Shown piece after piece: positions 585-22,996 of a stretch of 26,989 bases of DNA. Within the stretch, counting starts at the first letter, position 1. Every line of letters starts with the position of its first letter. The position numbers and the translations under genes are program-made. The stretch is from a virus. A model generated the notes under the pieces. The model saw only the letters and a program-made list of their open reading frames with translations, did not search any database and had not been told where the DNA came from. The DNA is taken from positions 1-26,989 of IMG/VR virus record IMGVR_UViG_3300031539_000265; one strand, given 5' to 3'.

Positions 585-1139
585 TTGCTACGAGAATCAA
601 TACGGCAATTAATAAGCGAAGAACTTGACGAATTACGTTTTAATATTGCGTTGGTAGAAATAGATCAGATATCACAAGCAGTAGATTTTGCTCGTGATAT
701 TCATTCCGGCCAATGGAGAAACAAATCGCCATTGCCATATATGGTACATCCAATGCGGGTATATCACCGCGCAAAAAAGAGAGGTCTCTCAAAGAAACAT
801 CAAGTTTTAGCCATACTACATGATACGGTTGAAGATTCTAACAATCCGCAAAGAACTCTGGCGAAAATAAAAGAGTTGTTTGGAAGTACGATTGCTAACT
901 TAATATTGATAATGTCGCATGATAAAAATGTGGATTATTCTACATATCTTTATAAACTGGCAAAACTGTCGCCGACGGCATTTGATATAAAGTTGTTAGA
1001 TTTAGAGGATAATTTGAGTGACAGCCCAAGTCCAAAACAACAATATAAGTATAAACAAGCATTAGACTATTTAGAGGAAAAGGGTATACAAATAAACTCA
1101 AAGATACGGGAAAAACTTTATCAAAAAGTTGGAAAATAA
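585..1139 (+). CDS. (p)ppGpp hydrolase-type HD domain protein with N-terminal packaging-like tag
   Basis: This 184-residue protein carries the stand-alone hydrolase half of the RelA/SpoT family, as in small alarmone hydrolases (SAH/MESH1). Visible motifs in order are HSGQWR-x5-PYMVHP (residues 40-56, metal-ligand His), ILHDTVEDS (77-85, the HD and ED signature) and KLLDLEDN (136-143, the late Asp/Asn motif). No synthetase domain is present. These families remove the 3'-pyrophosphate of (p)ppGpp, with Mn(II). Residues 1-17 (LRESIRQLISEEL) match the helix tag shared by many proteins here, so it may be a virion-packaged enzyme; that is inference. The TTG start has GGAG 7 bases upstream and begins the tag exactly. 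A terminator and candidate promoter lie upstream, and the next gene begins one base after the stop. It could act on another nucleotide. Confidence 0.88.
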   Translation: MLRESIRQLISEELDELRFNIALVEIDQISQAVDFARDIHSGQWRNKSPLPYMVHPMRVYHRAKKRGLSKKHQVLAILHDTVEDSNNPQRTLAKIKELFGSTIANLILIMSHDKNVDYSTYLYKLAKLSPTAFDIKLLDLEDNLSDSPSPKQQYKYKQALDYLEEKGIQINSKIREKLYQKVGK

Positions 1140-1140
1140 T

Positions 1141-4100
1141 ATGAATAATATAGAAAAATTTAGTGAACAAATACTTCTTGAAATGATTCAAGAAATCGAG
1201 AGAAAGTCGATGCCACAAGTCAAAGGTAAGAATGTAGATGAGGTATTGAAAATCTTTGATGAAAGTGGTATTGCTTATGAACAAGGTCAAGCTAAGTGTA
1301 GTGATTTATCAGCGACACAAGAAGATTTTATTCCTGAAAAAGTTGAAAGTATAAAGAAACAAATCCAGGAAACTGATTGGGTTACACATCCTTTATTCAT
1401 TTCAAAAGAGGGGAAGATACTTGACGGACATCATCGGTGGCTCGCGTACAAGGAAATCTATGGCGACGATTATTCTATTCCAGTGACCAAAGTTGATTTA
1501 CCATTAGAGCAAGCGTTACAAACCTTTGATGATAGTGCTTCAGAAGTGAATGAAGAAACAATTAATCAAAGGACTATTGTTGTTTTTCCTGGTCGTTTTC
1601 AGCCTTTTCATTCTGGGCATTATTATTCATATCAAGCGTTAAAGAAGAAATTTGGTGACGTTTATGTAGCGACATCGGACAAAGTTGAGCCAGGAAAATC
1701 GCCTTTTAATTTTTCTGAAAAGAAACAAATAATGAAAAAGATGTTTGGTATTTCAACGAATAGAATTATTCCAGTGAAAAGTCCTTATAATGCTAATAGT
1801 TACGAAAAAATAGGCGATTCAACTAAAGATGTTTTAGTTATTGGACTTGGAGAAAAGGACGCTCAACGTTTAGGTGGCAAGTGGTATAAGCCGTATAAGG
1901 GAAATGAAAACAACTTGAAACCTTTTAATGAACACATTTATACTTATATTGTTCCACAACTACAAATGAAAGTTGGTGGCAAAACGATTAGCGGAACACA
2001 AACACGAGAAGTGTTTAAAAAAGGTTCTGATAAAGCGAAACAGAATCTATTCAAAAAACTTTACGGAAAGTTTGATCAAGGTATATTTGATTTGATAGTA
2101 AATAAACTAAATGAAAGTGTTATTTTAGGAAGTACGGTAATAGAAGATTTTGTAACTGAAGTCAATATAAAACAACTTTTACTTGAGGTAAGTCAAGCTG
2201 TTGAGTCTGAAGTTGACGATGGGCCAGCTACATTTTACAAAAGACCTGACGCATTTGTATTGGGTCAACTTGTAAACAAACAAAAATCGGTGAGTGATGT
2301 TATTAAACAACTTGGTTGGCAGATTGTAGACTGGTTAGCCGGCGACAACGAAGATATAATGACACTTCGACATAAATATAAAACAGATCATGTAGGTGAT
2401 GTTTCATTTGGTGATCTTGGAGTAAGAGATACAACTTATCCAGATCCACTACAAAAGTATAAAAATCGTATGGAGAAAATAGCTACTAATGTAGGGTATT
2501 CTTTGGTTAGTTGGTTATTGAGTAAGGACAACAAGAGAAACATTATCGATGATCCTAAGAGCGAAATGGCGACACACGAGCCGTTAGTACAAAATACAAG
2601 TGGAAATAGACCATTAGGGGAACAACTTTTTTCAAAAGAATGGTGGACTAAAAATGTTATGACTGAAAGTCCTGATAATGTTGAAATAAAAGGAAAAAAT
2701 CTTGAATATACTGACAGAGATGCAAGGGCATTTGGGTATAAGAAAGAAAAAATGCTAATTTCTAAATTTGGAGATACACATTACAGTATGGGATTATTTT
2801 TGAAGTATTCAGGGAGAATTTGGAAAAAAAATAAAGTTATATCATTTTGGGAGTATCCATCGGTTAGTAAATTTAAAAAAGTAATTCAGGATCTTGAAAA
2901 AATAACTAAACTTAATATATGGAATGATCCAAAATGGCAATTAGATGTTGAAAAGTCTAAAGCCGTGATGGGAACTTTAATACCATTAAAATCATATATT
3001 GGTTCTGGTGAAGTAAAACGAACAAAACATGCGGATTCGCCTTTAATTAAAGGAAAAACAAAAGTTTCTGCGGGTTGGGGCTCAAAAAAAATACCAAAAG
3101 ATATAAAACCTGGCGAAACTATGGCTCAATATAATGCTCGTCAAAGAACCAGCGAAAATTTAGACGATTCAAAATTTTTATTAATAGAAGGTGGAGCATA
3201 TGGCCATTTAAATCATCCATTTGACGATATGGATTTGACATTTGGTGATTTAAAGACGATGATTGATACTGCTCTTGAGGGCAAGTTAGAAATGGCACAG
3301 GAAAAAACGGATGGGCAGAATTTAATGATTTCGTGGAAAAATGGAAAGTTGGTCGCCGCACGAAACAAGAGTCACCTAAAAAACTTTGGCGAGAATGCTC
3401 TCAACAAAAATGGAGTAAGTGATATGTTTGCGGGTCGCGGAGAAATTCAAAATGCTTTTACATTTGCCATGAATGATTTGGAAAAAGCGATAGGTAAATT
3501 ATCACAAAAACAAAAAGACAAAATTTTTCAAAATGGAAAGAAGTTTATGAGTTTTGAGGTAATGTATCCAGCGACACAAAATGTAATACCTTATGGAATG
3601 TCAATGTTATTATTTCATGGAACTATGGAGTATGACAAAGAGGGTAATGTAATAGGTGGAAGTAAAGAGGATGCTAAAATGCTTGCAGGAATGATAAAAC
3701 AAATTAATCAAGAGGTACAAAAAAACTATACGATTGGAGATGTACCTGTATTGAAACTTCCTAAAGTGCAAGATTTCTCAAAACAAAAAGCTAAATTTAA
3801 TAGTAAATTAAATACATTAAAAAATCAATTTAAATTAAAAGATTCTGATTTAGTAATGTTATATCATCAATCTTGGTGGGAAGATTTTATTTCAAAACAA
3901 GCGAAAAAGTTTAAATATGGAATACCAAATCGTGTAATGACAAATCTTGTAAAACGGTGGGCGTACAGTGACAAGTCATATAAGATAACGGACATGAAAA
4001 AGGAGATTGACAACGAGAAGTTTTTGAGTTGGGCGTTAGATTTTGACAAGACAAGTCATGATGATCAATTAAAGAAAAACATTTCGCCTTTTGAGTTATT

Positions 4101-4407
4101 ATTTTTAGAGTTGGGTGCTCAAGTATTGAAAAACATGAATCAACTATTAACTGCTAATCCTGAAAAAGCTGTACAACAAATGAAGAAAGATTTGGAAGCG
4201 ACTATTAAGGAACTTGAGGCGACAAACGATGTAACAAAAATGGGAAAGTTAAAAACACAACTGGATAGATTAAATGCTATTGGTGGAATGGACACAATAG
4301 TGCCGACTGAAGGAATTACGTTTATGTATAATGGAAAACTTTATAAATTAACGGGTACGTTTGCGGCTAGCAACCAGATATTAGGTATGTTGAAGTTTAG
4401 TAGATAA
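1141..4407 (+). CDS. Multidomain fusion: ParB-like, NMNAT-like nucleotidylyltransferase and ATP-dependent RNA/DNA ligase-like domains
   Basis: The start is ATG 1141, which follows the previous stop and has GGAAA upstream; the in-frame TTG at 1129 lies inside the previous gene. The product is 1088 residues. Residues 1-20 are a helix resembling the packaging tags. Residues about 25-125 look like a ParB/sulfiredoxin-type domain with ILDGHHRW (93-100). Residues 145-325 are an HxGH nucleotidylyltransferase: FPGRFQPFHSGH (149-160), VIGLGEKD and ISGTQTR (283-289), the NMNAT pattern. Residues about 340-510 are unassigned. Residues about 675-1088 show covalent-nucleotidyltransferase ligase motifs: EKTDGQN (721-727, Lys722 the likely adenylated residue), ARNKSH, SFEVMYP (804-810), EGITF (1057-1061) and YKLTG. 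Linkers contain L-N-E and V-T-E sites. Substrates are unknown; NAD synthesis and nucleic-acid end joining or capping are options. Confidence 0.87.
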   Translation: MNNIEKFSEQILLEMIQEIERKSMPQVKGKNVDEVLKIFDESGIAYEQGQAKCSDLSATQEDFIPEKVESIKKQIQETDWVTHPLFISKEGKILDGHHRWLAYKEIYGDDYSIPVTKVDLPLEQALQTFDDSASEVNEETINQRTIVVFPGRFQPFHSGHYYSYQALKKKFGDVYVATSDKVEPGKSPFNFSEKKQIMKKMFGISTNRIIPVKSPYNANSYEKIGDSTKDVLVIGLGEKDAQRLGGKWYKPYKGNENNLKPFNEHIYTYIVPQLQMKVGGKTISGTQTREVFKKGSDKAKQNLFKKLYGKFDQGIFDLIVNKLNESVILGSTVIEDFVTEVNIKQLLLEVSQAVESEVDDGPATFYKRPDAFVLGQLVNKQKSVSDVIKQLGWQIVDWLAGDNEDIMTLRHKYKTDHVGDVSFGDLGVRDTTYPDPLQKYKNRMEKIATNVGYSLVSWLLSKDNKRNIIDDPKSEMATHEPLVQNTSGNRPLGEQLFSKEWWTKNVMTESPDNVEIKGKNLEYTDRDARAFGYKKEKMLISKFGDTHYSMGLFLKYSGRIWKKNKVISFWEYPSVSKFKKVIQDLEKITKLNIWNDPKWQLDVEKSKAVMGTLIPLKSYIGSGEVKRTKHADSPLIKGKTKVSAGWGSKKIPKDIKPGETMAQYNARQRTSENLDDSKFLLIEGGAYGHLNHPFDDMDLTFGDLKTMIDTALEGKLEMAQEKTDGQNLMISWKNGKLVAARNKSHLKNFGENALNKNGVSDMFAGRGEIQNAFTFAMNDLEKAIGKLSQKQKDKIFQNGKKFMSFEVMYPATQNVIPYGMSMLLFHGTMEYDKEGNVIGGSKEDAKMLAGMIKQINQEVQKNYTIGDVPVLKLPKVQDFSKQKAKFNSKLNTLKNQFKLKDSDLVMLYHQSWWEDFISKQAKKFKYGIPNRVMTNLVKRWAYSDKSYKITDMKKEIDNEKFLSWALDFDKTSHDDQLKKNISPFELLFLELGAQVLKNMNQLLTANPEKAVQQMKKDLEATIKELEATNDVTKMGKLKTQLDRLNAIGGMDTIVPTEGITFMYNGKLYKLTGTFAASNQILGMLKFSR

Positions 4408-4458: not shown

Positions 4459-5190
4459 ATGATTATCTATAAAACAACAAATAAAATAAATGGAAAAATT
4501 TATATTGGGAAAGATAGTAAAAATAATTCTAATTATTTAGGTTCTGGAGTGATATTACAAAACGCGATAAAGAAATATGGCAAAGAAAATTTTGTAAAAG
4601 AAATAATTGAAGAATGTAAAAACGAACAACATTTAGACGAAAGAGAAATATATTGGATAAATTATTTTTCTGCTGTAGATTCTGAAAAATTTTATAATTT
4701 AGCTGATGGTGGTTGTGGTGTTAGTAGCCGAATGATGTATGATTATTGGAAAAACCATCCAGAAAGAAAAATGGAATTAAGTGAAAAAATGAGTGGAGAA
4801 AATAATCCTTTTTATGGAAAAACACACACCGAAGAAAATAAACAACTTTTTGCTGATAATGCGAGAAAATTACATACTGGTAAAAAACGAAGTGAAGAAA
4901 CAAAACGAAGAATAAAAGAAGGAGTAAAAAATTCTGATCATGCTGAAATTATGAAGTCGCCCGAAATGAGTAAGAGGATTTCTGAGGCGACAAAAAAAGG
5001 AATGGATAATCCTGAAGTGAGAGAGAAATGCGCGTATTGGAAAGGGAAAAAACAACCTGAAGAAATGGTTGAAAAAAGAAATAAAAAAGTATCGGAAGCA
5101 TTAAAAGGGAAGCCAAAATCTGAAGAGCACAAACAAGCATTAAAAGAAGCTTGGAAACGAAGAAAAGAAAGAAAAACAGAGGGTAAATAA
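4459..5190 (+). CDS. GIY-YIG homing endonuclease with NUMOD3 repeats (Seg-like)
   Basis: This 243-residue protein begins with the GIY-YIG nuclease fold: IIYKTTNKINGKIYIGK (residues 2-18) contains the paired IY/YIG strands. YLGSG, AIKKYGKENF and a conserved E in LDEREIYWI (54-62) follow, then YNLADGG. The C-terminal half has NUMOD3-type DNA-binding repeats of the form NPFYGKTH-TEENK, GKKRSEETKRRIKEG and GKPKSEEHKQALKEAW. This matches free-standing Seg endonucleases of T4-like phages, which cut alleles lacking the gene and so spread it. It has its own upstream TATATTTATA element and GGGGAG ribosome binding site, with a 51-base gap before it and another such element after it. It looks like a self-contained inserted cassette. 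It is complete, with no sign of decay. Confidence 0.93.
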   Translation: MIIYKTTNKINGKIYIGKDSKNNSNYLGSGVILQNAIKKYGKENFVKEIIEECKNEQHLDEREIYWINYFSAVDSEKFYNLADGGCGVSSRMMYDYWKNHPERKMELSEKMSGENNPFYGKTHTEENKQLFADNARKLHTGKKRSEETKRRIKEGVKNSDHAEIMKSPEMSKRISEATKKGMDNPEVREKCAYWKGKKQPEEMVEKRNKKVSEALKGKPKSEEHKQALKEAWKRRKERKTEGK

Positions 5191-5519: not shown

Positions 5520-5810
5520 ATGAAACGATCAGATTTGAAAAAAATGATTATAGAAGAAATCCAAAAATTGAAAGAAGAAGATTTGGTGAAAAAAGTTGCG
5601 GATGCCACTAAGAAAATGAATACAAAATACAAAAAACTTGTTGGGACGAGAGTAAAAACACCAGATAAACAGGAATGGGAATTTGTAGAAACTAATGATC
5701 TGGGTGTTCCGTATTTTGTTAAAGTTGTTGGTGGAAAACCACAAAAAAAACAATTTACGGTTGCAATGTTTGGCAGAGATTGGTTAGATTCTGAATTGAA
5801 GAAAAAATAA
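5520..5810 (+). CDS. Small tagged protein (96 aa), putative capsid-internal protein
   Basis: The function is not recognised. The N-terminus, MKRSDLKKMIIEEIQKLKEE, is a clear member of the shared amphipathic-helix tag, nearly the same as the start of the 22736 gene (MKRSELKEIIKEEITKF). After a basic helix the rest looks like a small beta-rich domain (GTRVKTPDKQEWEFVETNDLGVPYFVKVVGG) ending in a charged tail. The ATG has AAGGAG 7 bases upstream, and the stop overlaps the next ATG (TAATG). By analogy with T4 internal proteins the tag could direct it into the prohead and be cut by the gp21-type protease; that is inference. Confidence 0.8.
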   Translation: MKRSDLKKMIIEEIQKLKEEDLVKKVADATKKMNTKYKKLVGTRVKTPDKQEWEFVETNDLGVPYFVKVVGGKPQKKQFTVAMFGRDWLDSELKKK

Positions 5811-7702
5811 TGAAAGCATCCTTTAAAAACTTTCAACTTTTAGCAGACCCGGAGCTGTATGAAGCGATGTTGAAAAAATATGGAGCCCAATCTTATGGCG
5901 AAAATAAAATGGCAATTAAAACAAACAATTCATTTGCCAGTTGGATGATTGCCGAGAAGGTCGGCGACAAGTATAAGATTACGCCTATTTCATCTCAAAA
6001 CAACGAGAGACAATCTTTGCAAATGGAGGCATATTGGACAACACTGAAAGAATTTCCAATAACTGAGTATAAAGATGTGCCAATTTTTTACCGTCAGTGG
6101 TTTGTAAATCGGGGTTTGATAAAAGAATCAAGTGCAAGTGAAGAAGCGAAAAAGAAAGGCTTAACACATAAAGGGTTTGGGCGGTATGCAGATAAATCTG
6201 GAAAAGTTGTTGCAAAAAGTGAAGATGGTGCATTAGTTGGTTTAGATAAGGATAAAAAAACAAAAAAGGTTAATTCAAGAAAGGAAAATGATGATATGCC
6301 GCCTTCAAAAATTCCTGAAAAAATTAAAAGGATATTGAAAAAACATGATATAGAACCTATAAAGATTATAGGTGAAGGTGGGCATGGGTATGCATACGTA
6401 ACGAAAAATGGAAACATATTAAAGGTCACAAATGATAGAGCAGAAGCTAAAGCTATGGCAAAAATTAAAAAACACAACTTAAAAAACATAGTTAAACCTT
6501 TAAAAGTATTAAAAGATAGTAAAAATTTTTATTATATAGAAATGGAAAAACTTTATCCAATGCCCGATTCTATGATGGATGACAATATGCTTAGATATAT
6601 GACGGAACATCTTGCGGAAATAACTTATCAAGAAAATGGAAGGAATATAGGAAATATAACAAAAGATGATTTTGAAAAAATAATAACTAATGAATATATT
6701 TTTGATGACGAAGGTGTTTATATATATAAAGATATGAGTCAAGAAGATAAAATTGAAACCAATAAATCGATTAAAAAATATTTAAATCAAGAATGGAAAA
6801 AGTTTGAGCAATATAAAAAAACTAATAGTAAATTTTTAACTGATTATGTAAATGGAATAGATCAATTAAAAGATATAGGTATAGAATTTAAAGACACTCA
6901 TCTTGGTAATTTGATGATTGATAAAGATGGAAATTATAAATTTATTGATATAGGATATTCGTTTGGGGCAGAAAAGGAAAAAGTTAAAAAAATGGAACAA
7001 AAAGAAATGAAAGAGGAAGCAGAACGGGATTACAAGGATGAATACAAGAAATTTCAATCGTCAGATAAGAGTAAAAAATATAGAGCAGAACTGAACAAAT
7101 ATAATCGTGATAAGGGGACGTATGGAAACGGCGACGGCAAGGATGCGACACACAAGGACGGCGAGATAAAGGGATTTGAGGACGAATCAGCGAACAAGGG
7201 TCGCCGAGAAAAATCGCGACTCAAAAAGGAAAGTGAGATAAATGAAAAATTTCCAGCAGACTGGCAATACGATTTCCGTAAGATTGATTTTCCAAGTGTG
7301 CAAGTTTGGAGTGGAGAAAATCTTATAAAAACAAATCTACCAAAGAAACAAGCGCAACGATTAGTAAAAGCGAGAAAAGCGTTTGTTATAACTGGTGGAG
7401 CTATAAGTTTAATAGGGGAGAGTAAAACGAAAATAACGAAATTAAGGATTCGTGAGATCATTATGGAAGAATATCAAAAATTAAATGAAAGTCTTAAAGA
7501 AAATTTGGGTTTATCAAATGGAACTAAAGTTATGTACATAAACAATAAAAGTAAATTAGTTCCAGCAAAAATTAAGGATGAAGTAGGTCATGACCAATAT
7601 CAAATTATAGATGATAAAGAAGGAAATATACAAGTATTAAAAAAAGGGGGAAAGGCTAAACAAGGTGTATACTTTCAATTAAAAGAAAGTAAAATAAGCT
7701 GA
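5810..7702 (+). CDS. Polyprotein with protein-kinase-like domain and internal packaging-like tag
   Basis: This 630-residue protein has several modules. Residues about 10-105 are unassigned, with EAMLKKYGAQSYGE echoing the YGV-SP module of the 7751 gene. Residues 117-143 hold a GFGRYADKSGKVVAKSEDG segment. Residues about 183-390 are kinase-like: glycine loop GEGGHGYAY (188-196), Lys205 in ILKVT, catalytic-loop equivalent KDTHLGN (361-367) and metal site DIG (380-382), more like phage/APH-type phosphotransferases than classic HRD/DFG kinases. Residues 407-475 are very basic with GDGKDATHKDG, resembling an HNH-like module. Residues 543-561 are the helix tag LRIREIIMEE followed by KLNES; the remainder looks KOW/SH3-like. 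The kinase part is markedly AT-rich compared with its flanks and may be an insertion. Phosphorylation targets are unknown. Confidence 0.85.
   Translation: MKASFKNFQLLADPELYEAMLKKYGAQSYGENKMAIKTNNSFASWMIAEKVGDKYKITPISSQNNERQSLQMEAYWTTLKEFPITEYKDVPIFYRQWFVNRGLIKESSASEEAKKKGLTHKGFGRYADKSGKVVAKSEDGALVGLDKDKKTKKVNSRKENDDMPPSKIPEKIKRILKKHDIEPIKIIGEGGHGYAYVTKNGNILKVTNDRAEAKAMAKIKKHNLKNIVKPLKVLKDSKNFYYIEMEKLYPMPDSMMDDNMLRYMTEHLAEITYQENGRNIGNITKDDFEKIITNEYIFDDEGVYIYKDMSQEDKIETNKSIKKYLNQEWKKFEQYKKTNSKFLTDYVNGIDQLKDIGIEFKDTHLGNLMIDKDGNYKFIDIGYSFGAEKEKVKKMEQKEMKEEAERDYKDEYKKFQSSDKSKKYRAELNKYNRDKGTYGNGDGKDATHKDGEIKGFEDESANKGRREKSRLKKESEINEKFPADWQYDFRKIDFPSVQVWSGENLIKTNLPKKQAQRLVKARKAFVITGGAISLIGESKTKITKLRIREIIMEEYQKLNESLKENLGLSNGTKVMYINNKSKLVPAKIKDEVGHDQYQIIDDKEGNIQVLKKGGKAKQGVYFQLKESKIS
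7415..7429 (+). other. Decayed ribosome binding site and start codon inside a coding region (fusion scar)
   Basis: GGGGAG, then AGTAAA, then ACG, followed by codons for the helix tag KITKLRIREII. The intact equivalent at 11496-11511 reads AGGAG, AAAGTAAA, ATG, then KITKREL. The simplest reading is that a separate tagged gene once started here, its ATG became ACG, and it is now read as part of the upstream frame (residues 537-540, ESKT). Confidence 0.55.
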
Positions 7703-8964: not shown

Positions 8965-9378
8965 ATGGAATCAAAACTACGAAATATAATAAAAGAGGAA
9001 GTAAGAAAATTACTTGAGGTCGATGGTGAATATGAAAATATGAAATCATATAAAGATATGAAAAAGAAAATGGACTCTGTTGTTTCTTATGTAAAACAAA
9101 AATTAGGAAAACCTACAATTGAAGCTGATTGGTCGGACAAACCATTTTTGAGAAAAAAAGGGTCGTGGATTAATAAGAAAATGTATTGGAAAGACAAATT
9201 TCCAACAGTAAATTTTATGGTAATAGATGGTGATTATGATGAAGGATTTATTACAATAAATGTGTTTACTAGGGAAAAGGATTCTGATTATAAAAAAGTT
9301 GGAAATACATATCCAATACTCAATAAATCTGATTTGGATAAAGTGATAAGGTTTGTAAAAGTATACAATAAACAATAG
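8965..9378 (+). CDS. Small tagged protein (137 aa), putative capsid-internal protein
   Basis: The product begins MESKLRNIIKEEVRKLLEVD, one of the cleanest copies of the shared helix tag. The remainder (residues about 25-137) looks like one globular alpha/beta domain with many aromatic residues, including KGSWINKKMYWKDKFP and VNFMVIDGDYDEGFITINVF. I do not recognise it. The ATG has AAGGAG 9 bases upstream. The stop overlaps the ribosome binding site of the next gene. By the T4 capsid-targeting analogy, cleavage at a hydrophobic-x-E site near residue 18 would release the domain. Confidence 0.82.
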   Translation: MESKLRNIIKEEVRKLLEVDGEYENMKSYKDMKKKMDSVVSYVKQKLGKPTIEADWSDKPFLRKKGSWINKKMYWKDKFPTVNFMVIDGDYDEGFITINVFTREKDSDYKKVGNTYPILNKSDLDKVIRFVKVYNKQ

Positions 9379-10242: not shown

Positions 10243-10509
10243 ATGGATGAAAAATTCGGCGAACTTGAAATAACAAATAATGATTCGTGGGATAGATATA
10301 AAATTTATGTCATTGAAACTGTACGGCGTCTCCGTATAGAAGTTGATAATATACGGGAAAGGATAGATGAAGATATTGTAACTAAATTAAATTATTTAGA
10401 AAACCAAATATCAAAACTTCAAGTAAAGTCTGGGGCGTGGGGATTACTTGCGGGGCTTTTAGGAGTTGTAATTGCTATGATAATAAAATCTCAATTTGAG
10501 GTAGATTAA
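10243..10509 (+). CDS. Tail-anchored coiled-coil protein, XhlA-like (88 aa)
   Basis: I chose ATG 10243 over the in-frame TTG 10237 because AAAAGG lies just upstream. Residues about 20-65 form a coiled coil (VRRLRIEVDNIRERIDED, then KLNYLENQISKLQ), followed by a single membrane helix at about residues 67-83 (GAWGLLAGLLGVVIAMII) and a short tail. This architecture matches the hemolysin XhlA family, small phage proteins that act with holins in lysis; homology is not shown here. It directly follows the holin-like gene, and its stop overlaps the next ATG (TAATG). Confidence 0.75.
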   Translation: MDEKFGELEITNNDSWDRYKIYVIETVRRLRIEVDNIRERIDEDIVTKLNYLENQISKLQVKSGAWGLLAGLLGVVIAMIIKSQFEVD

Positions 10510-11072
10510 TGAAAATAGAAAGAATAAGACAAATTATTTTAGAAGAATTAAAAAATCTTTTAGTCGAAGCAGAAGGCGACAATAAAGAGAAAGAAAAGGT
10601 AAACAAAGAGAAAGAAAAAGTTGACCAACAAAAAACTGATTTTAATAAACAAAAATTAGATTTTAATAAACAAAAGTTTGATTATACACAAGATAAAGAT
10701 AGAGAAAAAGGTCAAGCAGACCTGGAGAAAGAAAAAGAAGATCGCCAGCAAGGTGGGGCGCCTCAAGATGGTGGTCAAGGTCAAGCAGAACCTGAAGTAA
10801 AACCAAATATTAGTTTCAAAGATCAAGGTCAATTTTACGAAGAGGCGTATCCGGAGTTGAGGAATCTTGCGTTGAGTGACGGAAAACTTATAGGCGACGA
10901 TGAGAGAAGATTTGTTGCTCTTGCTATTCAGGCGGCTGAGGGTCGTATGGATAAAGGGTTTGTGAAGTTTTTGAGTAAAGGTCGAGCAGGAAATGTATAT
11001 GGGAAAGATTTTAGTAATGAAGACAAACAAAAAATTATAGATTATTGTAAAACTCATGAGTTGGTGAGATAG
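10509..11072 (+). CDS. Tagged protein with heptad-repeat coiled coil (187 aa)
   Basis: The N-terminus (MKIERIRQIILEELKNLLVE) is a strong copy of the shared helix tag with an L-V-E site at 18-20. Residues 25-80 are eight nearly exact 7-residue repeats of the N-K-x-K-x-x-hydrophobic type (NKEKEKV twice, then NKQKLDF, NKQKFDY), visible in the DNA as imperfect 21-base tandem repeats. A Gly/Gln/Pro-rich linker (GGAPQDGGQGQAEPE) leads to a C-terminal helical domain (residues about 105-187) with YPELRNLALSDGK and AIQAAEGRMDKGFVKFL. The function is not recognised. The start overlaps the previous stop (TAATG). Confidence 0.82.
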   Translation: MKIERIRQIILEELKNLLVEAEGDNKEKEKVNKEKEKVDQQKTDFNKQKLDFNKQKFDYTQDKDREKGQADLEKEKEDRQQGGAPQDGGQGQAEPEVKPNISFKDQGQFYEEAYPELRNLALSDGKLIGDDERRFVALAIQAAEGRMDKGFVKFLSKGRAGNVYGKDFSNEDKQKIIDYCKTHELVR

Positions 11073-13495: not shown

Positions 13496-15106
13496 ATGGC
13501 ACAAATACCGGTAGTGAAGAAATCACTAAAAGAGATAATTGCGGAAGAATATAAAAGATGTGCAATTATGCCAAAATACTTTATGAAAAAGTATTGTGTT
13601 ATTCAACATCCGAAACGCGGAAAAATACCATTTATTTTGTATCCATTTCAAGAAGATTGTACTGATCAATTGGTTGAACATGGTTATACGATTATTTTGA
13701 AGTCGCGTCAGTTAGGATTATCCACTTTATCGGGTGCTTATTCGTTATGGATGATGTTATTTAAAGCAGACCAGAATATATTGGTAATCGCCACAAAGAA
13801 AGATGTAGCGAAAAACGTAATAACAAAAGTAAGAATAATGCATGATCATTTACCTTCGTGGTTAAAAAGTCCTACAACTGAAGACAACAAAATGTCATTA
13901 GTATTTAAAAATGGATCACAAATAAAAGCCATTTCAAGTTCGCCAACGGCTGGTCGTTCTGAAGCCTTGTCATTATTGATTCTTGATGAAGCCGCATTTA
14001 TTTATGACATTAAATTAATTTGGGGTGCTGCTCAACAAACTCTTGCTACTGGTGGTGATTGTATTATTCTTTCAACACCTAATGGTATGGGTAACTGGTT
14101 TTATGATATGTGGAGTGCTGCGGAAGAAGGTGTTAATGGTTTTCATACTATTTCATTGAAATGGGATGTTCATCCTGAAAGAGATCAACGATGGAGAGAT
14201 GAACAAGATGTTAAACTTGGTCTTCGACTTGCTGCTCAAGAATGTGATGCCGACTTTCTTGCCTCTGGTAATAATGTTGTTAGTCTTATAACACTCAAGT
14301 TTTTTGAAGAAACCTTTGTTAGAGAACCTGCAGAAAAACGTTCAGTTGATAAAGGTTTATGGATTTGGGAATATCCGGATTATAATAGGTCTTATATTAT
14401 TTCTGCTGATGTTGGTCGTGGCGACGGAAATGATTATTCTGCTTTTCACGTGTTTGATGCGGAGAGCTTAACACAAGTAGCAGAATACAAAGGACAAATA
14501 AATACTCGTGAATATGGCAGACTCCTTGCTGCTGTAGGTATTGAGTATAATAGTGCTTTAATCGTGGTTGAACGCGAAAATGTTGGTTGGGATACAATAC
14601 AAGAACTAATTGATATAAATTATCAAAACTTATTTTATTCGTCAAATGATTTACAATATGTTGATTCGTCAAGATATATCAACAATAAGATAAGACGAGA
14701 AGAAAAGAGAATGAAACCAGGTTTCGCCACAACTCATAGAAATAGAGCATTAGTAATAGCTAAGATAGAAAGATATTTTGAAGAAAATGGTAATGAAGAT
14801 AATGCCTTCAAGATATATTCTCAGAGATTAATAAATGAGTTGAAAGTTTTTATTTGGAATCACGGTAAAGCAGAAGCACAAAGCGGTAAGAATGACGATT
14901 TAGTTATGGCATTAGGTATATTATTATGGACGAGAGATACTGCTATGAGATTGAGAAGCGAGGGTATTGAGCTTACCAAAATGGTATTGGATAGGATCGG
15001 AAAATCTGAATTTGATTTAGGATTGTATAAACCTGGACAAATGACATATGATCCTAATAAAATGGATATTGGAAAAGAAGTAATAGACTTAAACCAGTTT
15101 TTATAA
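13496..15106 (+). CDS. terL: Terminase large subunit (T4 gp17-type)
   Basis: This is the DNA-packaging motor ATPase/nuclease, 536 residues against 610 in T4. ATPase motifs in order: Q-containing adenine motif YPFQ (49-52), Walker A KSRQLGLST (69-77), Walker B LLILDEAA (160-167) and coupling motif STPNG (193-197). The RNase-H-like nuclease follows, with acidic residues in ADVGRGDGNDYS (Asp305), VVEREN (Glu359) and KNDDLVMALG (Asp467/468). It works with the small terminase and the portal, whose gene is 880 bases downstream, to package DNA into the prohead. The N-terminal LKEIIAEEYKRC resembles the helix tag but is, to my recollection, native to gp17-type terminases, so I do not count it. In T4, tail sheath and tube genes lie between genes 17 and 20; they are absent here. 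Confidence 0.97.
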   Translation: MAQIPVVKKSLKEIIAEEYKRCAIMPKYFMKKYCVIQHPKRGKIPFILYPFQEDCTDQLVEHGYTIILKSRQLGLSTLSGAYSLWMMLFKADQNILVIATKKDVAKNVITKVRIMHDHLPSWLKSPTTEDNKMSLVFKNGSQIKAISSSPTAGRSEALSLLILDEAAFIYDIKLIWGAAQQTLATGGDCIILSTPNGMGNWFYDMWSAAEEGVNGFHTISLKWDVHPERDQRWRDEQDVKLGLRLAAQECDADFLASGNNVVSLITLKFFEETFVREPAEKRSVDKGLWIWEYPDYNRSYIISADVGRGDGNDYSAFHVFDAESLTQVAEYKGQINTREYGRLLAAVGIEYNSALIVVERENVGWDTIQELIDINYQNLFYSSNDLQYVDSSRYINNKIRREEKRMKPGFATTHRNRALVIAKIERYFEENGNEDNAFKIYSQRLINELKVFIWNHGKAEAQSGKNDDLVMALGILLWTRDTAMRLRSEGIELTKMVLDRIGKSEFDLGLYKPGQMTYDPNKMDIGKEVIDLNQFL

Positions 15107-15985: not shown

Positions 15986-17866
15986 ATGGCAGACAACGAT
16001 AACACACTATTTTCAAAACTTAAAAAGTTGTTTTCGTCACCAGTAGTTGTAAGAAACATTGGTGGAAAACGAATAAAAGTTGTTGATGTAGGACAAATAC
16101 AAAGATTTGGACTTACGAATCGTAATGACAAGTTTACGAGAATGTATTCCACTGTAAATTATGCTTTGCGTCAACAACAGGCTTTATATGGAATGGAAGC
16201 GCAACGTCTGCAGTTATTTCGTGACTATGAAGTTATGGATACTGATTCGATTATCGCTTCGGCGCTCGACATTTATTCTGAAGAAACGACAATGAAGAAT
16301 GAGATGGGCGACACGATTAGAATAAAGGCTGGAAGTGCGAATGTAAGAACGGTTTTGGAAAACTTATTTTATGATATAATGAATGTAGATTTCACCTTAC
16401 CGACTTGGGTAAGGGGAATGTGTAAATATGGTGATTATTATTTACAGTTAGAATTGGCGAAAGAGTTTGGAGTAACGAATGTATTACCTTTACCTGTTTA
16501 TGATGTAAAACGAGTAGAGGGTGTTGATCCAAACAAACCAACGGCTGTTCAATTTGTGATTGAAGGGCCGAGCGGGAAAGCCGAGTTGGAATTTTTTGAG
16601 GTCGCTCACTTTAGAATGATGACGGATTCTAACTTTTTGCCGTATGGAAAGTCAATGATTGAGCCTGCTCGTAGAGTATGGAAACAACTTATTCTTATGG
16701 AAGATGCTATGTTGATTCATAGAATCATGCGTGCTCCTGAAAGAAGAATATTCAAGATTGATGTTGGTAATATTGCTCCAAGTGATGTTGATTCTTATAT
16801 GAGAAAAATCATTACTCAAGTAAAGAAAGTGCCTTACATTGATCCACAAACGGGTGAATACAACCTAAAATTCAACTTACAAAACATGACAGAAGATTTT
16901 TATCTTCCTGTTCGCGGTGGTGATAGTGGAACGAGTATTGAATCACTTCCTGGAATGAGTTCTGAGGGTCAAATAGACGACATTGAATATTTGAGAAACA
17001 AGTTAATGGCTGCCCTAAAAATACCTAAAGCGTTCTTGGGATATGAAGAACAAATTGGAAGCAAGGCAACATTAGCAGCTGAGGATGTTCGTTTTGCCAG
17101 AACGATTGAAAGAATTCAAAAGATTCTTATATCTGAGTTAACGAAAGTGGCTCTTGTTCATTTATACATTCAAGGGTTTGAGGGGAATGATTTAGTTGAT
17201 TTTGAAATTGAACTTACAACGCCTTCAATTATTTACGAACAAGAAAAAATTGAGTTGTGGAATTCCAAGATAGGTTTAGCCAGGGACGCTAAGGATACGA
17301 GAATGTTAAGCATGGATTGGATTTACGAAAACATTTTCAACTTTACGGAAGATGAAATAGCGACTGAAAAGAAAAATGTTGTTGATGATACGAAACGAAC
17401 ATATAGAATTCAACAGATAGAGGAACAAGGGAACGATCCTGCTATATCAGATCAAGGTTTTAGTGGAGAAAAGGACAACACATTTGGCGAAAACAAAAAC
17501 TTTAATCTTCATTACGATGAAGAAAAAGAATATGTGCCAGTGAAACCGTCTGAAGATGGTCGCCGAGGAAAAACAGCCAGGACAAGAGATAAAGACGATC
17601 CATTCGGCGACGATCCAATAGGTAAAAAGGATTATGATAAAATTTTGAAGTTGGACAATGAAGTTGGATATGACGCGAATAAGAAAAAACATCTATCAAG
17701 AAATATAAGAAAAGCAGAATCTGTTTTAGGTAAAACTTTATTGAAATCAAAAAAAGTTATTACTGAAATAGATTTGAAAAAAATAGAAAATTATTTTGTT
17801 GATGGAGCAAAAGAAACCACGGAAACTGGTGGTTCTGGTATTGAAAATGAAGAAAATAAAGAATAA
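15986..17866 (+). CDS. gp20: Portal vertex protein (T4 gp20-type)
   Basis: This 626-residue protein (T4 gp20 has 524) forms the dodecameric portal through which DNA enters the head; prohead assembly starts on it. Recognisable T4-like stretches include YALRQQQALYGMEAQRLQLF (residues 59-78), YEVMDTDSIIASALDIYSEE (81-100), MCKYGDYYLQLE (145-156), EPARRVWKQLILMEDAMLIH, RAPERRIFKIDVGN and EYLRNKLMAALKIPKAFLGYE. The C-terminal roughly 120 residues are an extra charged, probably disordered tail (EDGRRGKTARTRDKDDPFGD). It contains VITEIDLKK with an I-T-E site at 592-594 that the gp21-type protease might cut. A TATATTTATA element and AAGGA lie upstream. Confidence 0.95.
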   Translation: MADNDNTLFSKLKKLFSSPVVVRNIGGKRIKVVDVGQIQRFGLTNRNDKFTRMYSTVNYALRQQQALYGMEAQRLQLFRDYEVMDTDSIIASALDIYSEETTMKNEMGDTIRIKAGSANVRTVLENLFYDIMNVDFTLPTWVRGMCKYGDYYLQLELAKEFGVTNVLPLPVYDVKRVEGVDPNKPTAVQFVIEGPSGKAELEFFEVAHFRMMTDSNFLPYGKSMIEPARRVWKQLILMEDAMLIHRIMRAPERRIFKIDVGNIAPSDVDSYMRKIITQVKKVPYIDPQTGEYNLKFNLQNMTEDFYLPVRGGDSGTSIESLPGMSSEGQIDDIEYLRNKLMAALKIPKAFLGYEEQIGSKATLAAEDVRFARTIERIQKILISELTKVALVHLYIQGFEGNDLVDFEIELTTPSIIYEQEKIELWNSKIGLARDAKDTRMLSMDWIYENIFNFTEDEIATEKKNVVDDTKRTYRIQQIEEQGNDPAISDQGFSGEKDNTFGENKNFNLHYDEEKEYVPVKPSEDGRRGKTARTRDKDDPFGDDPIGKKDYDKILKLDNEVGYDANKKKHLSRNIRKAESVLGKTLLKSKKVITEIDLKKIENYFVDGAKETTETGGSGIENEENKE

Positions 17867-17930: not shown

Positions 17931-18884
17931 ATGAAAAGAATTAAACACTCAAAGTACAAAAACACGGGTTTATTATTTGAGCTATTAGTTAGACAAACTA
18001 CAGCCGATGTTTTAAACGAAAGTAAAAACGAATCTTTTGCGATAAAAGTGATAAAGAAATACTTTGGCAACGGGAAACCATTAGCCAGGGAATTATCTTT
18101 ATATAAGGGATTAATGGATACAAAATTTACATCGGAAAATAGAGCAAAAGAGTTAATTGAAGAATCTATTAATTCACGGAAAAAGATTAGTAATTTATCT
18201 TTGAAAAAAGAGAAATATAATCTCATCAAAGAGATTCAGGATAACTATAATATCGACGAATTTTTTAGAAGTAAATTACCGAGTTATAAGAATTTCGCTT
18301 CAATTTATCAATTGTTTGAATCTGCAACAAATGAGGAAGGCGAATTATTACCTGCCGATAAAGTTCAATGTACATCGACTCTTATAGAACACGTAACTGG
18401 AAAACAACTTAAACCCATCAAACCAATAGAAGTTAGAGAAAATGACAAGGTTCTTGAAGAATATAAGAAAATGACTGAAGACCTTAGATTGCTTACTTAC
18501 AAAACAATGTTAGATAAATTTAATACTAAATATGAAGGTTTGGATGATGCTCAAAAAAATCTACTTCGTGAATTTATCTATAATGTTTCGAATACAAATT
18601 CCTTTAGAGATTATGTTGATAAAGAAGTTGATAGAGTAAAAAGTGACGTAATGACATTTATTCCTAAAATAGAAGATAAAACGACACGGATAAAAGTTGA
18701 AGGTGTCATTCCTAACATAGATAAATTAAAACGTGGTAAAGTGGTCAATGAAAATCAACTTATTCAACTTATGAGATATTTTGAACTTTTAAAGGAAGTC
18801 AAGAAAGTTGTTGAATGTCCTAAAAAAGGCGTTCTACAAAAAGCTGTTGCTAATAAAAGGATAACGGAGAAAGTCAATGGCTAA
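17931..18884 (+). CDS. Conserved T4-like phage head-region protein of unknown function (318 aa incl. longer form; 317 aa here)
   Basis: ATG 17931 has GGGGAG 5 bases upstream and is preferred to TTG 17928. I recall the N-terminus (KHSKYKNTGLLFELLVRQTT) as a recurring signature of a conserved protein encoded between portal and protease in marine T4-like phages; its function is not established to my knowledge. In T4 this interval holds the prohead-core genes 67 and 68, so a prohead-core role is possible by position only. The protein is mostly helical and charged, with YKTMLDKFNTKYEGLDDAQK and LIQLMRYFELLKEVKKV. Its last bases overlap the start of a homing endonuclease gene. Confidence 0.85.
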   Translation: MKRIKHSKYKNTGLLFELLVRQTTADVLNESKNESFAIKVIKKYFGNGKPLARELSLYKGLMDTKFTSENRAKELIEESINSRKKISNLSLKKEKYNLIKEIQDNYNIDEFFRSKLPSYKNFASIYQLFESATNEEGELLPADKVQCTSTLIEHVTGKQLKPIKPIEVRENDKVLEEYKKMTEDLRLLTYKTMLDKFNTKYEGLDDAQKNLLREFIYNVSNTNSFRDYVDKEVDRVKSDVMTFIPKIEDKTTRIKVEGVIPNIDKLKRGKVVNENQLIQLMRYFELLKEVKKVVECPKKGVLQKAVANKRITEKVNG

Positions 18885-19587
18885 TAAACGATTTTGTCCT
18901 AAATGCGGAGAAGAAATATTATATTCAACAAAATATGTTAAAATTAGGGCAGAAAAGCGAAATACAAATTGCTTATCGTGTGCGATGACAGGAAGAGTTT
19001 TTTCTGATAAACATAAAAAAAATATGAGTAAAAATCATAAAGGAATGTTAGGAATAAAACAATCTGAAGATGCGAAGAAAAAAATCAGAAAATCTCTTAA
19101 AGGAAAAAAACGAGAATCTTTTACTGATAAACATAGAAAAAATATAAGTGAATCTAAAAAAGGAAGCGTGCCTTGGAATAAAGGTCTAACTAAAGAAACG
19201 AATGATATTGTAAAAAAAATAAGTGAAGTCAGAATAGGACAAAAACGTTCAAAAGAAACAAAACGAAAACAACGATTGTCCGCGATAAAAAGAATTGAAA
19301 AAAATAAATTTAACGGTGGTCAAATGACTCCAGGATATAATCCTGTTGCATGTAAAATTATAGATGAATATAATAAAAAACACGGTTTCAATTTTCACCA
19401 TGCAGAAAATGGTGGCGAAGTTTGTATTGATGGATATTGGCCGGATGGATTAGATGAAAAACGAAAAACTATAATAGAAATCGATGAATCACGACATTAT
19501 AAAAATGGGACATTAAAAGAAAAAGACATTCAAAGACAACAATATCTTGAAGGCTTAGGATATAAAGTAATTAGAATAAAGATTTAG
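18877..19587 (+). CDS. Homing endonuclease with NUMOD3 repeats and Vsr-like (EDxHD / PD-(D/E)XK-type) nuclease domain
   Basis: This 236-residue protein starts with a zinc-finger-like segment (FCPKCGEEI at 4-12, then NCLSCAM; two C-x2-C pairs). Several NUMOD3 DNA-binding repeats follow (FSDKHKKNMSKNHKG, QSEDAKKKIRKSLKGK, FTDKHRKNISESKKG, VPWNKGLTKE). The C-terminal nuclease has GYWPDGLDEKRKTIIEIDES, then RHYKNGTLKEKDIQRQ and LEGLGYKVIRIK, which fits the very-short-patch-repair-like fold of EDxHD homing endonucleases (I-Bth0305I type). Family assignment is by eye. The ATG lies inside the end of the previous gene (8-base overlap), so it is a free-standing endonuclease inserted between a conserved head-region gene and the polyprotein. 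It appears intact. Confidence 0.83.
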   Translation: MANKRFCPKCGEEILYSTKYVKIRAEKRNTNCLSCAMTGRVFSDKHKKNMSKNHKGMLGIKQSEDAKKKIRKSLKGKKRESFTDKHRKNISESKKGSVPWNKGLTKETNDIVKKISEVRIGQKRSKETKRKQRLSAIKRIEKNKFNGGQMTPGYNPVACKIIDEYNKKHGFNFHHAENGGEVCIDGYWPDGLDEKRKTIIEIDESRHYKNGTLKEKDIQRQQYLEGLGYKVIRIKI

Positions 19588-19597
19588 GAGATAAAAG

Positions 19598-21472
19598 ATG
19601 GCTAAAAATGGCGACTATGTAAAAATAAATGAGTTAGATGTATTCCAAAAACACCAAAAAGCTATAGCGATAAAGACATTGAAATATAGTGATCAAGGTG
19701 CATTTATAATGGGTGGAATGACAAAGGATGAAGCGAGAAAGTTTCTCAAATCTATTGGATATAGCGACAATCAAATCAAGAAGTTAGAGGAATCAAAACT
19801 CAGTGAAGCAAAAGTTCATGTGGGAACTAACATTAAAGGTCGTCCAGTAAAGGGCAGCAAAACAGCTCAAAATTATTTACCGAAAACGTCATATAAAGTT
19901 GAGAAAAAAGGAAATACCTACATTTTTACCGCAAGTGATGGTTATCAATATGAAGTTGAATCGGGTGAATATAAAAAATTAAAAGAATCAAAACTCACTG
20001 AAAATGGTTTGCGTCAAGCGATACGCGCAATGATTGAGCAAGAGTTAGATCAGTTTGACATTGAGGACGAGGAACAAGATAAATGTGATATCGGGGAATG
20101 TGAAATTGAATGTGTAGAATGTGATAAAAACGAAAGTTGCGACAAATATAAAAAAGAAGAAGAATTAGATGAAACGAGTTCGGTAGCTGCTCAAGGTGGT
20201 CAAGATGGATATCAAACACCTTATGCTTTTGCTGGACGAGATAAAGCGAAGCAGAAACAGAATGCTGAGCAACTTGGATACAAGTTAGTGAATCAAAATC
20301 TTGAAGAAAGAGATTGGGATGATATAATAAATGCGAGGAAAGAGGCATTAGTTTATCGCCGAAAGTTCGCTGAAATGAAAACTCGTTCAGGATTAAATGA
20401 AGCAGCCAATCCAAAAAAGGGAAGAAAAAGTTTTTATACTATGGATAATGTAGGAAAACGTGGAAATTATACCATTAATGCTTATGATGGAAAAGCAACA
20501 CATAAAGATGGTAGCCCTTTTTATGATATAAGAATTTTTAGAGATAAGAAAAAATATCAAACAGCAATGAAAGATTTGACGAGTAAGGGATATGTGGAAG
20601 AAAGTGTAATCAAAGAAGAAGTCAGTCAACAAGTGAAAGACGATGTAACCGCTTTACTGAAAAGCTATGGTGGAAAGGAAGTACCTGATGATAAAGTGCA
20701 TGCGATTGCTGACAAGCATGGTATTTCACCACATGAGTTAGAATCATTTATTTATAGTTTAGCATCACAGCATGTAAATGAAGGAACGCACGGAATCGCG
20801 AAAATCTATATTGGTGAGAATCCTTATTGGTTAAGAAAAATGGGTGACACGACACATTTTCACATGGCGAATTCAGCTAAAGGAATAAAAACTGGTGGAG
20901 TGACATATCATATTGGACAACATAGAGATGAACTATATTACAATGATCTTGTAAAATGGCTTAAAGGTGTGGGAAAGATAAATGGTAAAAAATATACGGA
21001 TTTTTTTAGACAATTATCTAAAATTGAAAGTATAATAGAAGATAAAAAAGATATAACGAATTTAAAATCCGGCGATTTAGTTTATTTAAAAAAAGGTAAA
21101 GATCGGGGAAAGGTTGTACATTGGATAGATTCGACGAAATTGCTTATAAAAACTAAATCAGGACAGCGCGTTGTTAATTTAAGTGCTATTGATGCGGTTC
21201 GCGAATCGAAAGATGAATTAACTGAAGGTCGCCGTGGAGCGTATCACGAATATCGTGACGATGGTGATAAGACGCCTCGCCAAAAGATCGGCGAATCACT
21301 TAGAAATGTAAGAGATCAACTGACTGAAATAGAAAAAACGATTGACCTGAATCTTCGTTTAAAACAAGAAACAGGAATCAATATTCAACAATACTGGAAA
21401 AATACGCATCGCGCTCTAAATAAAATCAACGAAAGAATGACGCAAATTATTAATAAGATACGGAGATTCTAG
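19598..21472 (+). CDS. Large modular polyprotein with multiple L-x-E sites and internal helix tag (624 aa)
   Basis: At least six modules appear to be joined by short linkers with cleavage-like sites: ESKLSEAK (66-72), ESKLTEN (130-136), GLNEAAN (265-271), HVNEGTH (392-398), RESKDELTEG (535-544). Residues 137-153 are a helix tag (GLRQAIRAMIEQELDQF). It is followed by an acidic segment with five cysteines (Cys163, 168, 172, 175, 181). Residues 199-235 (GYQTPYAFAG, QLGYKLV) and 545-624 (RRGAYHEYRDDGDKTPRQKIG, NVRDQLTEIEKTIDLN) are modules I recall from other T4-like phage proteins. Residues about 488-535 look KOW/SH3-like (KSGDLVYLKKGKDRGKVVHW). No catalytic signature is seen. AGGAG lies 7 bases before the ATG. 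Position before the protease gene fits a prohead-internal substrate. Confidence 0.83.
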   Translation: MAKNGDYVKINELDVFQKHQKAIAIKTLKYSDQGAFIMGGMTKDEARKFLKSIGYSDNQIKKLEESKLSEAKVHVGTNIKGRPVKGSKTAQNYLPKTSYKVEKKGNTYIFTASDGYQYEVESGEYKKLKESKLTENGLRQAIRAMIEQELDQFDIEDEEQDKCDIGECEIECVECDKNESCDKYKKEEELDETSSVAAQGGQDGYQTPYAFAGRDKAKQKQNAEQLGYKLVNQNLEERDWDDIINARKEALVYRRKFAEMKTRSGLNEAANPKKGRKSFYTMDNVGKRGNYTINAYDGKATHKDGSPFYDIRIFRDKKKYQTAMKDLTSKGYVEESVIKEEVSQQVKDDVTALLKSYGGKEVPDDKVHAIADKHGISPHELESFIYSLASQHVNEGTHGIAKIYIGENPYWLRKMGDTTHFHMANSAKGIKTGGVTYHIGQHRDELYYNDLVKWLKGVGKINGKKYTDFFRQLSKIESIIEDKKDITNLKSGDLVYLKKGKDRGKVVHWIDSTKLLIKTKSGQRVVNLSAIDAVRESKDELTEGRRGAYHEYRDDGDKTPRQKIGESLRNVRDQLTEIEKTIDLNLRLKQETGINIQQYWKNTHRALNKINERMTQIINKIRRF

Positions 21473-21892: not shown

Positions 21893-22347
21893 TGCCGATA
21901 AAATTGAAGAAAATTATTGATGAAATTGTAACTCCACTTGATAGAAAAATGGATATACACACCGATGGTAACTATTTATTGAGAAGAAAGACGACTGGCC
22001 AATATTATGCTGGTGGAAATATACATACACCAACAACGACAATGAATAAAAATAAAGCATCAACATTAACTGGAAATGAAATAAAGAACATAAAATATAA
22101 CTGGCCTATGAGTTGGGATTTGATTGATTTGAATAAAGATGCCGATAAAGATAATATGGGTGGAATAAGAGTTAATGAACTTAGTTTTAACGCTGATATG
22201 TTGAATAAAGTACACGGTGATGTAATGAATTTTTTGAGTAGTGAACATAAGAAACTTGGATATGCTAACCCACTTGATACTTATCATTTATTACAACAAG
22301 TATTGGGTTCTGATAAAATATTGAGTAAAGTAAAAGGGATACGATAA
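21892..22347 (+). CDS. Hypothetical protein (151 aa) with weak N-terminal tag
   Basis: The N-terminus PIKLKKIIDEIVTPLDRK is a weaker relative of the helix tag. A histidine- and threonine-rich stretch follows (HTDGNYLLRRKTTGQYYAGG, IHTPTTTMNKNK). The C-terminal half has NELSFNADMLNKVHGDVMNF and DTYHLLQQVLGS. The function is not recognised. Both its start and its stop overlap the neighbouring genes (TAATG at each end), so it lies in a tightly coupled run with the genes before and after. Confidence 0.78.
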   Translation: MPIKLKKIIDEIVTPLDRKMDIHTDGNYLLRRKTTGQYYAGGNIHTPTTTMNKNKASTLTGNEIKNIKYNWPMSWDLIDLNKDADKDNMGGIRVNELSFNADMLNKVHGDVMNFLSSEHKKLGYANPLDTYHLLQQVLGSDKILSKVKGIR

Positions 22348-22724
22348 TGAAAATCTCAAAGTTGAGAATAAAAGAAATAATACGAGAAGAAATGATAAGA
22401 GAATTTCAGGGACTTCCATCACAGGGTAAAATGTTTATTAGAGTAAATGATAAAAAGGGAGCGTTAAAGTTTCTCAAGAAAATGGATATAAAATTTACTT
22501 CTGAAGAACCAAACTTACATGGTGCTACATGGTATAACAAAGACAAGATCGTAGCAGAACTGGACAAACATATGTTAGTGATTTTTGAGGAGCGACAAGT
22601 ACAACAAAATAGATTAGATGAAGCATTAACGAGTAAGGATTATGCGGAGATAAAAGATATAATAAGAGCTGAAATTGCTGCGGTCTTTTTTGATTTATTC
22701 AAAAAACGCGCGATGTGGATTTAA
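22347..22724 (+). CDS. Tagged protein (125 aa) with C-terminal tag-like helix
   Basis: The N-terminus, MKISKLRIKEIIREEMIREF, is the strongest consensus copy of the helix tag and is nearly the same as the internal tag at about 7427 (KITKLRIREIIMEE). The middle is a small alpha/beta domain (MFIRVNDKKGALKFLKKMDI, GATWYNKDKIVAELDKHMLV). After RLDEALTSKDY comes a second amphipathic helix, EIKDIIRAEIAAVFFDLFKK, ending in AMWI; I recall this end module in other phage proteins. The function is unknown. The start overlaps the previous stop. Confidence 0.82.
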   Translation: MKISKLRIKEIIREEMIREFQGLPSQGKMFIRVNDKKGALKFLKKMDIKFTSEEPNLHGATWYNKDKIVAELDKHMLVIFEERQVQQNRLDEALTSKDYAEIKDIIRAEIAAVFFDLFKKRAMWI

Positions 22725-22735
22725 GGGGAAATGAT

Positions 22736-22996
22736 ATGAAACGTTCTGAATTAAAAGAAATAATTAAAGAAGAAATAACTAAATTTATGGAATCTGGATG
22801 GGAATATGATATTGAAGCGTATAGACCAAAATTAAATAAGGAAAAAGAAACTATAACTTTTGTTAATGATGCTGAAACCAAAAAAGCATTATCTGCTTTG
22901 GCGAAAAAAAAGATAAATGCTACGCGAGTTGGCAAGACTTTAAAATTTTTGAATACACACGACTTCAAAAAGGCGCAAACAATGATAATAGTATAA
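22736..22996 (+). CDS. Small tagged protein (86 aa)
   Basis: ATG 22736 has GGGG 7 bases upstream and starts the tag directly; an in-frame earlier start at 22715 would read through the ribosome binding site. The tag MKRSELKEIIKEEITKFME is nearly identical to that of the 5520 product, with F-M-E in place of L-x-E. The rest (YDIEAYRPKLNKEKETITF, KALSALAKKKINATRVGK, DFKKAQTMIIV) resembles a small alpha/beta fold. The function is not recognised. Confidence 0.8.
   Translation: MKRSELKEIIKEEITKFMESGWEYDIEAYRPKLNKEKETITFVNDAETKKALSALAKKKINATRVGKTLKFLNTHDFKKAQTMIIV

Follow-up and report, generated by a model that had tools for sequence, protein, structure and literature searches.

The Locus

The window analyzed here, a stretch of 26,989 nucleotides, is a 27 kb fragment of the late region of a T4-like myovirus. 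Near its beginning lies an open reading frame for a predicted enzyme of the small alarmone hydrolase (SAH) family with an intact active site, which keeps company with a head module. All features below are on the plus strand.

1–417, +: P-loop kinase-like protein, C-terminal part, 61% identical to L001:5250–6116
574–577, +: Shine-Dalgarno-like GGAG, 7 nt upstream of the TTG; the GGAG/TTG arrangement is also present in L001
585–1139, +: SAH open reading frame, 184 amino acids plus stop (1137–1139), from the ORF list, family matches and fold
585–644, +: SAH N-terminal helical tag MLRESIRQLISEELDELRFN, from tag models, fold alignment and comparison with L001
666–1136, +: SAH catalytic HD domain, residues ~28–184, from invariant residues, AlphaFold2 and structure matches
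1141–4407, +: multidomain protein with a ParB-like N-terminal part, an NMN-adenylyltransferase-like domain and a C-terminal RNA-ligase-like domain, from domain and structure searches
5520–5810, +: tagged small protein (MKRSDLKKMIIEEIQKLKEE), window tag model
8965–9378, +: tagged protein (MESKLRNIIKEEVRKLLEV), window tag model
10509–11072, +: tagged protein (MKIERIRQIILEELKNLLVE), window tag model
13496–15106, +: T4-type large terminase, family matches; its N-terminus is tag-like, a caveat discussed below
15986–17866, +: T4-type portal protein (gp20), family matches
19598–21472, +: protein with a LRQAIRAMIEQELDQFDIE segment that falls in the family of head genes nearest to the SAH tag, tag models
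22347–22724, +: tagged protein (MKISKLRIKEIIREEM), window tag model
22715–22996, +: tagged protein (MKRSELKEIIKEEITKFMES), window tag model
23269–23928, +: gp21-type prohead protease, Peptidase_S77, 3.3e-31

The TTG is the sole start codon that the window SAH shares, before codon 50, with its orthologue in the 168 kb contig L001. The two proteins are 83% identical, and the L001 protein keeps the TTG start as well as the tag (LRESIRQLISEE); L002 carries an orthologue identical to that of L001. Between window and L001, dN/dS is 0.13 overall and 0.145 across the tag codons.

For the upstream P-loop protein, no significant match was found in the PDB; its L001 counterpart (L001:5250–6116) carries the tag MRELIRELINEVLNE. 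The large protein downstream matches DarB/PLxRFG-type proteins in its N-terminal part, and its RNA-ligase-like domain (nt 3187–4404) contains invariant EKxDG and EG..F motifs. Nucleic-acid ligases, most of them RNA ligases, make up all 19 of the best structural matches of this domain, with a best Z score of 7.0, which is below 8. Counterparts of the protein are located at L001:10548–13346 and L089:14941–17688, and the ligase-like part occurs in a great many related viral contigs: of 598 candidate stretches, at least 587 were confirmed.

CCA-adding enzymes with L/I-x-E N-termini (for example MIKLKNLLQE/G) are encoded in three phages of the group, near the SAH in both L001 and L100, and in a third one; such short-tagged enzymes sit in head-cargo regions at L001:3572–5020, L100:7042–8496 and, on the minus strand, in L340. 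A CCA enzyme is present in two of the five SAH-bearing records compared with one of 12 others, and as these are mostly fragments, the association is weak. Compared with L001:14286–15215, the protein at 5810–7702 of the window has ~300 extra residues with protein-kinase-like motifs seen by eye (Pfam and PDB searches returned no kinase match), as if cargo domains had been swapped between tags. Homing-type endonuclease genes are also found in this late region, at 4459–5190 (GIY-YIG/NUMOD3) and 18877–19587 (NUMOD3/DUF559).

The Enzyme

The SAH is a single-domain protein, for which Pfam gives neither synthetase nor regulatory domains. It matches Pfam HD_4 above the cut-off (7.7e-7), the metal-dependent phosphohydrolase family PHROG_990 (3.8e-27) and TIGR00691 spoT_relA (1.2e-12, under the full-length cut-off of that family). 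The residues that should bind metal and take part in catalysis, H40, H55, H79, D80, E83, D84, D139 and N143, are invariant across 43 viral SAHs. The first-pass annotation had described the SpoT-type motifs HD, HDxxxED and D-x-x-x-N as intact. This holds for HD, for D139-LED-N143 and for all catalytic residues, but the second motif reads HDTVED and is therefore HDxxED, not HDxxxED.

The AlphaFold2 model reached a pLDDT of 94.7. Compared with the PDB, it gave a Z score of 19.4 to both PaSAH from Pseudomonas (6yvc) and human MESH1 over ~155 residues, followed by SpoT (Z 17.2) and 7smg (Z 16.8). The latter, a (p)ppApp hydrolase from Bacteroides caccae, is the best PDB match by sequence (1.4e-10). 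Alignments with SAH-family structures begin at model residues 16–24, showing that the tag, which comprises the first ~20 residues, is extra to the fold. In the model it runs on into the first domain helix (H2–39).

In trees with and without long branches, the SAHs of the window, L001, L099 and L100 form one clade (support 100/98). This clade falls on the side of 7smg, which we equate with Aph1 from PMC11699363, in a split from Rel and MESH1 supported at 99/94 and 98/93. The window SAH lies outside the small clade that holds Aph1, in a tree that contained one Aph1 reference only. At a position that we take, from general knowledge of RSH enzymes, to contact the base, the window SAH reads GQWRN, L001 GQWRK and 7smg GQIDK; the Arg is thus kept in the window SAH, as in most Rel-side SAHs. 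The classification as a SpoT-type enzyme with (p)ppGpp as the substrate is not supported in that form: the trees set the protein apart from Rel and MESH1. Despite this Aph1-side position, the Arg and the full-length fold look SAH-like, and we therefore assign no single substrate. SAHs can use (p)ppApp as well, and one from a phage takes pyrophosphate off tRNA-CCA (PMC11559606). The candidate substrates are (p)ppGpp, (p)ppApp and pyrophosphorylated tRNA-CCA.

The N-Terminal Tag

A helix with the pattern (L/I)(R/K)xxI(R/K)xEE(L/I/V)xx(L/F) is shared by eight open reading frames of the window, and among reversed or minus-strand ORFs the corresponding model gave no hit that passed its threshold. 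Of the window's tags, that of the SAH is an outlier (leave-one-out score 7.3, p 0.0085 by shuffling). An independent model was built from 17 N-termini, none from the window, of the conserved portal-to-prohead-protease gene in other phages of the group, of which LKEIIRELIKKELDE/AST is an example. Scored with this head-gene model, the SAH N-terminus ranks 7th of 4,803 ORF N-termini, and three of 100,000 shuffles were as good; among the other viral SAHs none scores except the L001 orthologue. When the SAH N-terminus was compared with 4,106 ORF starts, the best matches were mostly other head-module tags. Furthermore, the N-terminal extensions of the window and L001 proteins are the longest among the 43 viral SAHs. 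The helix tag noted earlier at the start of the protein is real and atypical, and it is shared with head-module proteins of the phage's own group. It is a putative targeting peptide. The N-termini of terminases score as tags too, although terminases are not packaged, and tag similarity is by itself not proof of packaging.

A search of phage records with a 22-residue consensus tag gave no match, so immuto and Mel-JY01 are the named phages on which the tag was tested. Five of the six matches to the window tag model in the related, cultured Flavobacterium phage immuto fall at 102–123 kb, around terminase, portal and protease, with no matches in reversed proteins; weaker tags are visible as well. 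Among cultured relatives with tags, immuto is the nearest, and it yielded no SAH. In Mel-JY01 the same model found no clear N-terminal tags. A second N-terminus, FDLKKFLVENKLT or similar, recurs near the terminase of immuto (L084 3171, 16996 and 17997) and is possibly another capsid-targeting tag. A likeness of Mel-JY01 L085:22395–23561 to ADP-ribosyltransferases, noticed by eye only, was dropped, as Pfam gave no match.

In T4, N-terminal capsid targeting sequences of 10–19 residues are cut by gp21 at L/I-x-E and bring foreign enzymes into the head and then into the cell (PMC9026906). An S77 prohead protease is encoded in all four contigs (window, L001, L099 and L100). The SAH tag offers three candidate sites, I10-S-E12, L14-D-E16 and L23-V-E25 (nt 657–659 for E25), the last as LxE only. 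L001 keeps E12 and E25 but not E16. The motif is a short one, and the P1' residue at these sites is atypical, being E, L or I; A and S are the commonest in the phage group. IRQLISE of the SAH tag resembles KQIVSE/AN and KQLISE/AN, which were picked out by eye as likely cleavage sites of the immuto and Mel-JY01 major capsid proteins.

Relatives in Other Phages

The more distant members of the clade add two observations that support the packaging idea. The L099 SAH (48% identity) is encoded directly between terminase and portal; for its short extension, the locus itself offers no close match. The L100 SAH starts with MNSLKQIYYQILIE, a form common to its neighbors MKTLKNIYFDILSE, MNNLKSIALNILNE and LQTLKNILFQKIISE, and among 4,164 ORF starts its best match is its own neighbor L100:8530 (MKTLKNIYFDILSE). 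This tag differs from that of the window and ends in the prohead-protease motif L/I-x-E. The Aph1-side SAH of L145, a contig classified as phage in which the S77 protease is absent, starts with YGNLRMLISE, similar to LSELRRLIRE of a neighbor.

In total, SAHs were found in 124 phage records, and those examined mostly begin at the HD domain without a tag-like extension. SAH domains also occur inside large multidomain phage proteins (L113:4075–6537, L111:3–2981, L116:1–8505). The L113 protein joins the SAH domain to an NMN-adenylyltransferase-like domain, which in the window is found in the neighbor of the SAH. In Mannheimia phage 1152AP2 (L092), an untagged SAH at 2025–2438 lies two genes past a MuF head protein with one small ORF between them, a layout that has been described for Apk2/Aph1 toxin-immunity pairs. 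In Listeria phage CKA15, the gene for an alarmone enzyme belongs to a separate operon in reverse orientation.

Interpretation

Because the tag is like those of head-assembly proteins, the enzyme is probably packed into the head and injected together with the phage DNA, which we consider the best explanation of the data. That it is packaged, injected and also acts as a 3'-pyrophosphohydrolase, all taken jointly, we hold to be somewhat favored. The capsid-targeting-type helix would draw the SAH into the prohead core during head assembly, where a gp21-type protease may trim it at L/I-x-E, past E12, E16 or E25. The protein would then be packaged alongside the DNA and injected on infection, like the T4 internal proteins and Alt. 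In the cell it would hydrolyze the 3'-pyrophosphate of (p)ppGpp, (p)ppApp or pyrophosphorylated tRNA-CCA and may thereby cancel a starvation or defense signal ahead of phage gene expression.

The location of the SAH, near tagged CCA enzymes in relatives and beside an RNA-ligase-like protein, makes tRNA-CCA repair a live alternative. The injected SAH would here strip the pyrophosphate that toxSAS enzymes (CapRel, PhRel, FaRel2) place on tRNA 3'-CCA ends, and it would be co-packaged with the CCA-adding enzyme and the RNA-ligase-like and kinase-like proteins. We regard this as possible, with clearly less confidence than the general packaging reading. It agrees with the activity of PaSpo, the SAH of phage SSU5, which removes tRNA-CCA pyrophosphate (PMC11559606), with the role of toxSAS in anti-phage defense (PMC9712102), with the L/I-x-E-tagged CCA enzymes in L001, L100 and the third phage, and with the genes on both sides of the SAH, a kinase-like protein that is tagged in L001 and a protein ending in the RNA-ligase-like domain. 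The sparse occurrence of the CCA enzyme in SAH-bearing records and the ligase match below Z 8 speak against it. The more demanding version, an injected RNA-rescue kit of tagged SAH, CCA-adding, ligase-like and kinase-like proteins that undoes attacks by the host on tRNA before phage expression, with the SAH erasing toxSAS pyrophosphorylation at the tRNA-CCA ends, appears unlikely.

Alternatively, the tag could be an assembly or oligomerization helix, or debris of head-gene shuffling, on an SAH that is produced only once infection has begun and acts in the cell as phage SAHs elsewhere do. The many phage SAHs that start at the HD domain indicate that such an enzyme is of use even when it is not packaged. 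In the AlphaFold2 model no break separates the tag from the first helix of the domain, and terminases have a similar N-terminal helix. However, the SAH-type N-terminus recurs on unrelated head-module proteins, and the L100 SAH bears the local tag of L100 itself, so that we find this explanation rather doubtful, a little more so than tRNA rescue. Far less probable is a function in immunity against an alarmone synthetase toxin carried by the phage itself, in the way Aph1 serves MuF-Apk2. The Aph1-side position in the trees would fit, as would the fact that Apk2/Aph1 pairs occupy head morphogenesis regions (PMC11699363), but no MuF gene was seen near the window SAH, and the RelA_SpoT synthetase domain PF04607 is absent from the window, itself a fragment, and from six related records that include genomes of 160–190 kb.

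If the SAH is indeed packaged and injected, an alarm-cancelling enzyme would be delivered at phage entry, before any gene is expressed, which is when defenses based on the stringent response or toxSAS would need to be overcome. It could then be tested whether, in starved cells, infection is limited during its first minutes by alarmone or tRNA pyrophosphorylation, and whether a recognizable tag predicts injected proteins across a large group of T4-like environmental phages.

Comparison with Known Systems

Phage alarmone hydrolases are already known (PMC7824862, PMC12846349), as are the capsid targeting sequences of T4 and polyvalent proteins that are injected and contain RelA/SpoT synthetase domains. 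With PaSAH (6yvc), MESH1 and PaSpo of SSU5, the window SAH has the HD fold and the metal and catalytic residues in common; it differs by the extra head-type tag of ~20 residues and by its Aph1-side position. With Aph1 (7smg) it shares the DLEDN motif and the side of the 98/93 split, whereas 7smg has GQIDK, lacks a tag and is the shorter protein, and Aph1 has a toxin as its partner (PMC11699363). The T4 internal proteins and Alt resemble the present case in that a short N-terminal peptide is found on unrelated proteins of a phage with gp17/gp20/gp21-type head genes, and in the L/I-x-E motif, for which the SAH tag offers candidate sites. The tag sequence of the window is, however, unrelated to that of T4, and the cargo is an alarmone-hydrolase-type enzyme.

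The injected polyvalent proteins (Iyer 2017, PMC5512222) are multi-enzyme proteins with ParB-like and signaling domains, comparable to the protein at 1141–4407, but that paper describes RelA/SpoT synthetase domains in them and not hydrolases, while the window SAH is a separate tagged protein. The HD-alarmone phosphodiesterases of jumbo phages (PMC7824862) are phage HD enzymes proposed to counter alarmone signals, as the SAH may do; neither a packaging tag nor injection is known to have been proposed for them. In the open-licence literature we found no report of a packaged or injected alarmone hydrolase, nor of one with a head-type tag like the probably packaged SAH described here.
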